Of a stretch of DNA of 39,942 bases, positions 16,724 through 21,533 are shown piece by piece (the stretch's first letter is position 1; each line of letters starts with the position of its first letter). Below the pieces are notes generated by a model. The model was not told the origin of the DNA. It saw nothing but the letters and a program-made list of their open reading frames with translations, and did not search any database. Source of the stretch: Thermoplasmata archaeon (lineage in GTDB: Archaea > Thermoplasmatota > Thermoplasmata > Lutacidiplasmatales > UBA184); contig JASHPY010000061.1 in assembly GCA_030037855.1 (NCBI GenBank), positions 1-39,942 of the forward strand, given 5' to 3'. A program made the translations under genes and the position numbers.

Positions 16724-18286
16724 GTGGAACGTTCGGCCGCCCGGGAGCCGCCCCGAGCGAACGGCGGTTCCCGGCACGGACCCGAGCGGACCCTCGGGGT
16801 GATCGACGTCGGCTCGAACACGGCGCGGTGCGTCGCGTTTGAGGCTTCGGCGTCCGGGAGCGTCCGGGCCTTTTACGAGGCGAAGGAGTCGCCGCGACTC
16901 GGGCTCGACCTCGGCCCGGACGGGCGGCTCGCTCCGGAGGCGATCGACCGGGGGGTCGCGGCGGTCGAGCAGTTCGACCGGACCGTGCGCTCGCTCGGGC
17001 TTTCCCGGACGATCGCGGTCGCAACGAGCGCCGTTCGCGATGCGCCGAACGGCTCGGAGTTCGTTCGCCGGGTCGCGCGCGCGACCGGCATCGACCTTCG
17101 CATCATCTCGGGTGCGGAGGAGGCCCGGTACGCCTACCTCGGCGTGGCCGGCGCCTGGGAGCTCGGCCACGACCTGGTCTCCGACCTCGGCGGGGGCTCC
17201 CTGCAGCTCGCGGAGGTCCGCGCGGGCCAGCTGAGGAACTCCGTGAGCGTGCCGCTCGGGGTCCTGCGGCTATCGCAGCGATTCTTCGAGCACGACCCTC
17301 CGAAGCGCCGAGAGATCGACGAGCTTCGGGGCCACGCGCGCGAGACCCTCGCGTCCGTGCTCGAGGCGTTCGGCGGCACGGGCTACCGCGTCTTCTCGGT
17401 CGGCGGCACGGTCCGCTCGCTCGCCCGGGCGGCGATCGAGCTCCGCGACTATCCGGTCGAGCGCGTCCACGGCTACCCCCTGTGGGACCACGACCTGGAG
17501 GCGCTCGGAGAGCTCCTGGGGGAAATGCCGGCGGCCAAGCGCCGAGCGGTGCCGGGGATCGGTGCCGACCGCGCGGACGTCGTCGTGGCCGGGATCGTCG
17601 TGCTGCAGGAACTCGTCCGCGCGACCGGGGCCGGGCGGCTCGTGGTCGCCGGGACCGGCATCCGCGAGGGGCTCGCCCTCGAGGCGATCGGGGCGAAGCT
17701 CCCGGCGCCCGCCGAGGAGCTCGCGGAGCGCTCCGCGGCCGCCGCGGCGGAGTCGTTCGCGTTTCGGATCGACCACGGGCGGGCGGTGGCGGACGCCGCG
17801 CTCGGGCTCTACGACGTCTTTTCGTCAAAGTTCGAGTGGGGTCGCAGCGAGGGTCTCGCGCTGCGGGTCGCCGCGTGGATGCACGACGCCGGCATCGCGA
17901 TCGACCTCTGGCGCCACGCGCACCACTCCGCCTACCTGATCCAGAACTACCCGATCTGGGGGCTCGACCAGCGGGAGATCCTCCTCGCGTCGATGTCCGC
18001 GCGCCTCCACGAGGGCGGGGAGGCGCCCTCGGCGTGGAAGAAGGCGTACCTTCCGATCATCCGCCCGGCGGATGTGGAGACGGCCCGCCGCCTGGGCGCG
18101 ATCCTCGAGGTCGCCGAACTCGTCTCGGCGGCTCGCCCCCGCTTCTCGTTGGGCGGCGGGGGCAAGACCCTGACGGTGGCTTTTTCCTCCCCGACCGATA
18201 CGTCCCTCCCCCCGCACTGGGAGGAGAAAGCACGAAAGTCGATGGAGCGCGAGTTCGAGGTCGAGGTGCGGTTCCGTGCCGGATGA
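16724..18286 (+). CDS. ppx: Ppx/GppA family phosphatase (exopolyphosphatase-like) with C-terminal HD-type region
   Basis: 'TLGVIDVGSNTARCVAFE', 'ISGAEEARYAYLGVAGAW', 'SDLGGGSLQLAEV', 'VFSVGGTVRSLARAA'; C-terminal 'WMHDAGIAIDLWRHAHHSAYLIQN' is HD-like. Confidence 0.9.
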   Translation: MERSAAREPPRANGGSRHGPERTLGVIDVGSNTARCVAFEASASGSVRAFYEAKESPRLGLDLGPDGRLAPEAIDRGVAAVEQFDRTVRSLGLSRTIAVATSAVRDAPNGSEFVRRVARATGIDLRIISGAEEARYAYLGVAGAWELGHDLVSDLGGGSLQLAEVRAGQLRNSVSVPLGVLRLSQRFFEHDPPKRREIDELRGHARETLASVLEAFGGTGYRVFSVGGTVRSLARAAIELRDYPVERVHGYPLWDHDLEALGELLGEMPAAKRRAVPGIGADRADVVVAGIVVLQELVRATGAGRLVVAGTGIREGLALEAIGAKLPAPAEELAERSAAAAAESFAFRIDHGRAVADAALGLYDVFSSKFEWGRSEGLALRVAAWMHDAGIAIDLWRHAHHSAYLIQNYPIWGLDQREILLASMSARLHEGGEAPSAWKKAYLPIIRPADVETARRLGAILEVAELVSAARPRFSLGGGGKTLTVAFSSPTDTSLPPHWEEKARKSMEREFEVEVRFRAG

Positions 18287-18977
18287 GACCCCGAGCCCGA
18301 CGCACGGCTTTCCCGGCCGGCTGTTCGTTTTCGAGGGGCTCGACGGGAGCGGCAAGTCGACCCAGGCCGCGCTCCTCGGAAAGTGGCTCCAGGCGCAGGG
18401 GTACCGCGTGTTCTTCACCGAGTGGAACTCGTCCGAGCTGACGGCGGCGACGATCCGCCGGGGGAAGAAGAAGAACCTCCTCACGCCCACGACGTTCTCG
18501 CTCTTGCACGCGACCGACTTCGCGGACCGGTTCGAGCGGAAGATCCTCCCGCCGCTCCGCGCGGGCTACGTCGTCGTCTGCGACCGGTACGCCTACACCG
18601 CCTTCGTTCGCGACGCCGCGCGGGGCTGCGACCCCGCGTGGGTCCGGAACATCTACTCGTTCGCGCCGCGACCGGACCAGGTCTTCTACTTCCGCGTCCC
18701 GGTCGCGGTGACGCTGAAGCGCAAGATCGCCTCGCGCGTCAAGATCAACTACTACGAGGCCGGGATGGACCTCGGCCTCTCCCCCGACCTCCACGACAGC
18801 TACGCGCGGTTCCAGACGCGCCTGAAGAGCGAGTACGAGCGGATCGCGCGGACCGACGGCTTCACGGTCATCGACTCGAGCCGGACGGTCGAGCGGATCC
18901 AGACCGACCTGCGCGGCTACGTCCGGCCGATCCTCGAGAACTTCCCCACGGGCGAGCGGTTGATGCATGATAGCTAG
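18276..18977 (+). CDS. Thymidylate kinase superfamily protein 1 (candidate non-canonical / polyphosphate-linked kinase)
   Basis: P-loop 'FVFEGLDGSGKSTQ', 'VVVCDRYAYTAFVRDAARG'; 11-bp overlap with ppx. Confidence 0.85.
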   Translation: MPDETPSPTHGFPGRLFVFEGLDGSGKSTQAALLGKWLQAQGYRVFFTEWNSSELTAATIRRGKKKNLLTPTTFSLLHATDFADRFERKILPPLRAGYVVVCDRYAYTAFVRDAARGCDPAWVRNIYSFAPRPDQVFYFRVPVAVTLKRKIASRVKINYYEAGMDLGLSPDLHDSYARFQTRLKSEYERIARTDGFTVIDSSRTVERIQTDLRGYVRPILENFPTGERLMHDS

Positions 18978-19725
18978 GACGTACGGGAGCCGGCTCCCGG
19001 GCCTGCCCGACGAGAGCCTGAGCGGCAAGCTGATCGTCATCGAGGGGGCCGACGGCTCGGGACGGACGACGGAGGTCTCGCTCCTCCGCGAGTGGCTCGA
19101 GGTCGAGGGTCACGCGGTCGTCGACACCGGGCTCCGGCGCTCGACGCTCGTCGCGGGCGAGATCGACCGCGCGAAGCAAGGGCACACGCTCGGCGCGACC
19201 ACGATGGCGCTCCTCTACGCGGTCGACTTCGCCGACCAGCTCGAGAACAAGATCGTTCCCGCGCTCGCGGCGGGGAGCACGGTCCTCGCCGACCGGTACA
19301 TCTACACTCTGATGGCGCGCGCGGTCGTGCGCGGCGCGTCGCGCGAGTGGGCGCGCCGGCTCTACGGCTTCGCCCTCCGCCCGGACCTCGTGATCTTCCT
19401 CGAAGCCCGACCCGAGATCCTCCTCCACCGCGCGATCTCGAAGTACGGGTCGCTCGACTACTGGGAGTCGGGGATGGACCTCTCCCTCTCGCGGGACCTC
19501 TTCGAGAGCTTCTTCGCCTATCAGGACCGGCTCTCCAAGGAGTTCGCGTGGGTCGGCGCGGAGTACGGCTTCCACCGGGTGGACGCGAATCGGCGTCCGG
19601 AGCAGGTCCACGACGATGTCCGTGCGCTCGTCGCCCCGCTCTACGCCGGTCCCTTCGGGGCGCGCCCCGCGACGCGCCCCCGCCCGCCCGTCATTCCGCG
19701 AGCCGCGCGAGCTGCTTCCTCGTGA
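18967..19725 (+). CDS. Thymidylate kinase superfamily protein 2, tandem paralogue of the previous gene
   Basis: P-loop 'IVIEGADGSGRTTEV', 'VLADRYIYTLMARAVVRG'; shares 'E(A/S)GMDL(G/S)LS(P/R)DL' with TMK-like 1; 11-bp overlap. Confidence 0.85.
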   Translation: MIARTYGSRLPGLPDESLSGKLIVIEGADGSGRTTEVSLLREWLEVEGHAVVDTGLRRSTLVAGEIDRAKQGHTLGATTMALLYAVDFADQLENKIVPALAAGSTVLADRYIYTLMARAVVRGASREWARRLYGFALRPDLVIFLEARPEILLHRAISKYGSLDYWESGMDLSLSRDLFESFFAYQDRLSKEFAWVGAEYGFHRVDANRRPEQVHDDVRALVAPLYAGPFGARPATRPRPPVIPRAARAASS

Positions 19726-20288: not shown

Positions 20289-21335
20289 TCACCCCGGGAT
20301 CGGAGCCGCGTCGGGTCCCGCCCGGTCGGTCAGCCCGGTCGGGACCGCGCGGTCGAGCGCGACCTGCGCGATGTCCTGGGCGTAGGCGACCGTCCGGCCG
20401 ATCGACTCCAGGATCCGGGAGACCGCCGCGGCGGTCGCGGGCGGCATCGTGCCGCCCCCCACGGCGGGGAGCAGTCGTTCCGAGAGCGCACGACCGGAGG
20501 CGAGCAGCGCATCTCCCATGTCGAGGAGGTCGTTCGCGGCCGTCCCGTCGCGCGCGGCGAGGACGCCCTCGAGGTGGACCATCGCCTGCCGATGGAAGGG
20601 CCGCAGGGACGCGAGGGGCCCGGTACCGTCGGGCAGGTCCCCGAGGCGCCGTCCGACCTCTCCGAGGACGATCGCGTGGTCCGCGATCCGCTCGAGGCTT
20701 CGCGCGACCGTCCAGGCGCCGAGGAGGTCGCCGCGGGTCCCCTCGGACTCGAGGCCCAGCGACGCGAGCCGCTGGACGTACCACGCTTCGCGGTCGACCT
20801 CGTCGTCCCGCCGCTCCCAGTAGCTGTCGTCCCCGAGCGGAAGGCGCGTCCAGCTCCCGACCGCCTCACGCTGGAAGGCGACCACCATCCGTCCCATGCG
20901 CGTGAGCCGCTCGGCGACCGATACCGGGCTATCGTAGGCGAGGTCGCGGAGCCGGAGGACGCCCGCCTCCTCCGAGACGATCTCGGGCTGGCGCGTACGG
21001 CGACAGAACGTGCGAACGATCTCCCGAGTGCCCCCACGCGGAGGGGCGCGGTCGATGACGACGAACTCCCGCGCTCCTGCGAGGTACGCGCCGAGGAGAC
21101 GTCGGAACAGGTGCTCGGGAGATTCGTCCGGGCCGACCGTGACGGTCGCGACGGTGGTGCGGGCGAGACGGAACGCGTCCCCGGGCGCTCCGGCGCCGGT
21201 GGCGCGGGCCGAGATCCTCGGACCGGTGGAGTCGGCGGTGCGTCGCGGCACCCGGGTCGAGGGACGGGGCCCGGCACGGGGCCGGGCGACGCCGGGGGTC
21301 GATCCCCGCTCTGCGGGGTGGATCGTTTCGCTCAT
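20289..21335 (-). CDS. PhoU-domain protein (phosphate-uptake regulator-like)
   Basis: PhoU hallmark helices 'GAWTVARSLERIADHAIVLGEVGRRL' and 'SIGRTVAYAQDIAQVALDRAV'; N-terminal 'VVAFQREAV'. Confidence 0.78.
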   Translation of the reverse strand: MSETIHPAERGSTPGVARPRAGPRPSTRVPRRTADSTGPRISARATGAGAPGDAFRLARTTVATVTVGPDESPEHLFRRLLGAYLAGAREFVVIDRAPPRGGTREIVRTFCRRTRQPEIVSEEAGVLRLRDLAYDSPVSVAERLTRMGRMVVAFQREAVGSWTRLPLGDDSYWERRDDEVDREAWYVQRLASLGLESEGTRGDLLGAWTVARSLERIADHAIVLGEVGRRLGDLPDGTGPLASLRPFHRQAMVHLEGVLAARDGTAANDLLDMGDALLASGRALSERLLPAVGGGTMPPATAAAVSRILESIGRTVAYAQDIAQVALDRAVPTGLTDRAGPDAAPIPG

Positions 21336-21354: not shown

Positions 21355-21403
21355 ACGACATATATAGAATTTCAATTTAGACTATACAAAATACTATAGG
21401 TAT
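21355..21403 (-). promoter_or_regulatory. AT-rich promoter/operator island upstream of the PhoU-domain gene
   Basis: 'CATATATAGAATTTCAATTTAGACTATACAAAATACTATAGGTATG' within very GC-rich DNA; TATA-like CTATATATG on the minus strand about 25 bp from the start codon; ACTATA at 21381-21386 and 21393-21398. Confidence 0.65.
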
Positions 21404-21460
21404 GATTCCCGAGGTCCGCCGGCCGCTCGGACGCCCCACGGGGAGCCCGACGGCGAAGGA

Positions 21461-21533
21461 TGGGCCGGGACGGATTCGAACCGCCGATCTCCGCGTTGTA
21501 AGCGCGGCGTCCTCACCGCTAGACCACCGGCCC
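21461..21533 (-). tRNA. tRNA-Val(UAC)
   Basis: Reverse complement GGGCCGGTGGTCTAGCGGTGAGGACGCCGCGCTTACAACGCGGAGATCGGCGGTTCGAATCCGTCCCGGCCCA: paired 7-bp acceptor stem, anticodon loop CTTACAA, GGTTCGAATCC T-arm; CCA not encoded. Confidence 0.97.

Follow-up and report, generated by a model that had tools for sequence, protein, structure and literature searches.

The window analyzed here is a 39,942 nt stretch of archaeal DNA with 72% GC. An AT-rich island at 21355-21403 is located between the minus-strand genes for tRNA-Val(TAC) and a PhoU-domain protein, and lies 5′ of the latter (Table 1). The sequence that the earlier note had described as an isolated AT-rich island in GC-rich DNA was found at about 21359-21404, and its isolation is borne out by composition: the 48 bp richest in A/T in the window (21360-21407) contain 39 A/T (81%), compared with 29 (60%) in the runner-up. 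The highest A/T count per 48 bp in first-order Markov simulations of the window (n = 200) averaged 24.8 and never exceeded 29. This composition null and the conservation footprint described below led us to reject a chance AT-rich patch. The two ACTATA copies recorded earlier are present at 21381 and 21393, 12 bp apart; they belong to CTATAG, a hexamer identical to its reverse complement, and the functional reading of the element is that of the minus strand. Elsewhere in the window, a Ppx/GppA-type phosphatase gene (16724-18286) is followed directly downstream by two overlapping tandem ORFs on the plus strand (18276-19725), both matching thymidylate kinase.

Read on the minus strand, the conserved element (~21360-21399) is a little shorter than the island and has the form CTATAG-N6-GTATAGTCTAAATTGAAATTCTATATAT, that is, CTATAG, TATTTT, GTATAGTCTAAATTGAAATT and the terminal TATA box CTATATAT, followed by 24 nt and the ATG. 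The earlier note had proposed a TATA-like element at a leaderless distance from phoU, and this holds beyond the window: the ATG is located 24-26 nt past TATATA in nearly all same-genus phoU orthologues (50 sites). A T located 11 nt before the start codon is conserved at 82% of the phoU sites of the genus (50 sites), and a T is found at about the corresponding place of the promoter at 81% of the pstS sites (27 sites). The spacing of the TATA box and this proximal element to the ATG fits an archaeal core promoter with leaderless translation, and phoU transcription is predicted to be leaderless. A perfect palindrome was rejected, as the core comes no closer to one than a pseudo-palindrome (TATATTCT...AGATATATA, seen in some relatives); dimer binding is thus putative.

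Table 1. Features of the operator-promoter and its neighbors (positions in the window).
Feature	Position	Strand	Basis or remark
PhoU-domain gene, 348 aa, predicted leaderless	20289-21335, ATG at 21335	-	Pfam PhoU, E=1.2e-05
Proximal-promoter-element-like T	21346	-	11 nt before start codon; T conserved in genus sites
TATA box CTATATAT	21360-21367	-	24 nt before ATG
BRE-like GAAATT	21368-21373	-	Directly 5′ of TATA box; putative role, by analogy with archaeal promoter layout
Proximal conserved element GTATAGTCTAAAT	21375-21387	-	Upstream of basal promoter; TATA(G/T)TCTAAAT nearly invariant
Distal half-site CTATAG	21394-21399	-	12 nt 5′ of core; CTAT-like at -12 in genus sites
Whole conserved Pho-type operator and core promoter (CTATAG-N6-GTATAGTCTAAATTGAAATTCTATATAT)	21360-21399	-	Footprint over 50 phoU and 27 pstS genus sites; two own-genome sites
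tRNA-Val(TAC)	21461-21533	-	Upstream neighbor, context only; ARAGORN

The element is kept at the same place in same-genus orthologues with 34-75% protein identity, although the genes further upstream differ. At the phoU sites, the box holds ~71 bits relative to a GC-rich background, and the preceding 40 nt hold 2.7 bits. The distal CTAT precedes the core by exactly 12 nt at 47 of the 50 phoU sites and 24 of the 27 pstS sites. As the pattern used for the site search did not ask for the distal CTAT, its position at -12 was not imposed, and the 12-bp spacing is therefore a conserved feature. The aligned consensus is CTATnG-N6-CTATAGTCTAAAT with 12-nt spacing. The direct repeats recorded in the earlier note are thus conserved in relatives together with their 12-bp spacing, but they account for no more than the upstream part, about half, of a ~40-bp element that extends into the TATA box. 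The pstS boxes of the genus carry an extra CATATA-like repeat at -23 to -18 from the core, which is lacking from the phoU boxes and is perhaps a third regulator site.

We searched the own genome (1.75 Mb, 85% complete) for the core pattern with up to three mismatches and found only this site and a second one at C93:20961-20987, directly upstream of a pstS-pstC-pstA-pstB-phoU operon. The domains encoded there are PBP_like_2, two BPD_transp_1, ABC_tran and PhoU, corresponding to a PstS-like protein, PstC, PstA, PstB and a second PhoU. The concern raised in the earlier note that identical islands might stand at unrelated housekeeping promoters is allayed for this genome, as the scan found the element at none of its unrelated promoters. 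Matches within two mismatches are present in 52 of 61 same-genus genomes, usually one or two sites each, and the other nine lack a match at this threshold, many of these genomes being incomplete. A reversed-pattern control gave four matches in all across the 61 genomes. The 111 unique sites collected from the genus and class comprise 56 before phoU, 43 before pstS and 12 unassigned, of which three precede phoU genes truncated at a contig end. In other genomes, a small number of weak sites come without a phosphate gene. In one genome of the genus (L089, G036:C98), a good core box that lacks the distal repeat is followed by the gene of an unknown protein of 134 aa. The exact pattern gave 19 matches among 84,980 GTDB genomes, all of them Thermoplasmata MAGs. 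These include AcS1-36, AcS1-45 and AcS1-67, which are listed as Ca. Lutacidiplasmatales (PMC9287336) and thus place the genus there.

In the own-genome pstS leader (L150:6849-7000, G000:C93), pstS starts roughly 100 nt past the box. An ATG, GTG or TTG is located 24-25 nt past the TATA box, at the expected transcription start, at 19 of 27 pstS sites, where it opens a short ORF. These short ORFs vary in sequence and length, and a conserved leader peptide was rejected. In one relative (L156, G004:C156), phoU is located directly upstream of pstSCAB-phoU, with a box-like promoter for each. In another family (L158, G300:C18), the box is located between a PstS-like gene and a gene for a CitMHS/Na-sulphate-symporter-type transporter, which suggests an extra phosphate-regulated transporter there.

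A related box with the consensus of about TATATTCTATwTCGAnAAnnTATATA is also present in further families, both within the class and within the phylum. In about ten families, it is typically located between pstS and a divergent gene with AbrB and PhoU domains, both identified by Pfam, and in some lineages this SpoVT/AbrB-PhoU gene is itself box-controlled. Because of this gene context, AbrB-PhoU is the best candidate and probably the reader of the box. In the own genome, an AbrB-PhoU paralogue (PF04014, 1.7e-05; PF01895, 1.2e-26) is encoded on contig C50, unlinked to the box, and the AbrB-PhoU candidate is not box-linked in the window's genus. The lack of an AbrB-PhoU gene adjoining the box in this genome, and the loss of AbrB from the PhoU that does adjoin it, would fit a Pho operator read by another protein, such as a winged-helix regulator with its gene at another locus. 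We consider this alternative plausible but rather unlikely, given the divergent arrangement recurring in about ten families and the lineages in which the box controls AbrB-PhoU itself.

The PhoU assignment of the window's protein is supported by Foldseek matches to PhoU structures (best PDB 1xwm, E=4e-04) in addition to Pfam. Neither Pfam AbrB nor an AbrB HMM built from the lineage matched it, so that an N-terminal DNA-binding domain of the AbrB/MazE type was not detected. In the predicted structure, residues 1-59 are disordered (pLDDT <50) and are followed by an alpha/beta domain and then the PhoU helical bundle. The AbrB N-terminus is retained by the box-controlled PhoU proteins in sister genera and in part of the genus; the box-controlled proteins of the window's clade carry a 60-residue disordered basic Arg/Pro-rich tail in its place. 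Judged from these sequences, the window's PhoU has lost the AbrB domain; therefore, a paralogue probably reads the box, and the product of this promoter is unlikely to do so through AbrB. Residues 62-131 (about 20943-21152, minus strand) gave weak, non-significant fold matches to the nucleic-acid-binding proteins Alba and YhbY. We tentatively propose that the AbrB-less, box-controlled PhoU might act as a phosphate-dependent partner or anti-regulator tuning the full-length AbrB-PhoU paralogue, a role that we regard as possible though doubtful. If true, the functions of a DNA-binding regulator would have been divided between an inducible copy that only senses and a binder expressed separately.

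The promoter of the AbrB-PhoU gene on C50 has the same TATA box but lacks the operator, its proximal element being absent, and is a natural control separating the operator from the core promoter. It bears on whether the island is just a strong core promoter, with BRE, TATA box and AT-rich upstream DNA but no dedicated regulator. The properly placed TATA box and the BRE-like stretch agree with such a promoter. However, the paralogue does with the same TATA box and without the upstream part, TCTATATA occurs just four times in the genome, and TATAGTCTAAAT and the distal CTAT approximately match the TATA box in conservation, with own-genome sites only at phoU and pst. The operator-less promoter of the paralogue and the rarity of TCTATATA led us to reject a plain promoter, which is improbable. 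As the box is located 60-100 nt 3′ of the tRNA-Val gene on the same strand, it might be taken for a terminator or spacer of that gene. This is hardly conceivable and was rejected, since most orthologues keep the box although they have other upstream genes and no tRNA, its position is tied to the phoU start rather than the tRNA, and it lacks a long T run.

We therefore consider it likely, with good confidence, that the island combines a Pho-regulon operator with an archaeal core promoter, the probable reader being AbrB-PhoU. An operator of the CTATAG-N6-CTATAGTCTAAAT type would abut the BRE/TATA core promoter and drive leaderless transcription of phoU, and the same element would drive pstSCAB-phoU elsewhere in the genome. 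As the element is shared by both units, a regulator would set them together by phosphate supply; the likeliest one is a SpoVT/AbrB-PhoU fusion protein acting as a dimer, here the C50 paralogue. We infer the phosphate response from the genes controlled. With ample phosphate, the regulator might repress by occupying BRE/TATA; alternatively, it might activate by binding to the upstream half of the element. The sequence is compatible with either sign of control.

These results provide uncultured Thermoplasmatota of acid soils and peat with a defined phosphate-regulon operator and a named candidate regulator, and point to one pairing of cis-element and AbrB-PhoU that an archaeal phylum has retained in many of its families. 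In the own genome of this soil archaeon, the probable switch precedes just two gene sets, the high-affinity phosphate pump and a PhoU-type protein. The motif is specific enough for the regulon to be recognized from sequence alone and for DNA to be chosen for binding tests.

The bacterial PHO box bound by PhoB consists of CTGTCAT-type 7-bp direct repeats. It likewise controls pstSCAB-phoU through direct repeats at about helical-turn spacing, but the present element differs in sequence, its aligned consensus showing a 12-nt spacing and no CTGTCAT-type 7-bp repeats, overlaps an archaeal TATA promoter and implies no PhoB/PhoR. Among the papers covered, our literature searches did not find an earlier description of the present motif. 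Phosphate control by such archaeal boxes is experimentally known mainly from haloarchaea, and the haloarchaeal pho-boxes are the closest known kind, likened here by their published description. By this analogy, and given that the second own-genome site and 43 of the 111 collected sites occupy the promoter position of pst operons, the present element is a probable new pho-box in another phylum. The pho-boxes of Halobacterium salinarum are described as binding motifs of a PhoU regulator and as essential for pst upregulation (Furtwangler et al. 2010, cited after PMC6560208); the present element differs in driving a stand-alone phoU-domain gene as well and in extending into the TATA box. In Methanosarcina mazei, phosphate starvation induces pstSCAB-phoU (PMC6864096). 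The gene linkage of H. volcanii PhoU2 to pst is also seen for the AbrB-PhoU of relatives. The SpoVT/AbrB-PhoU regulators, of which Thermococcus TK2245 is a named example (PMC7325993), share their domain architecture with the proteins that relatives encode next to the box and divergently from pstS, whereas the window's PhoU lacks the AbrB domain that its paralogue elsewhere in the genome possesses.
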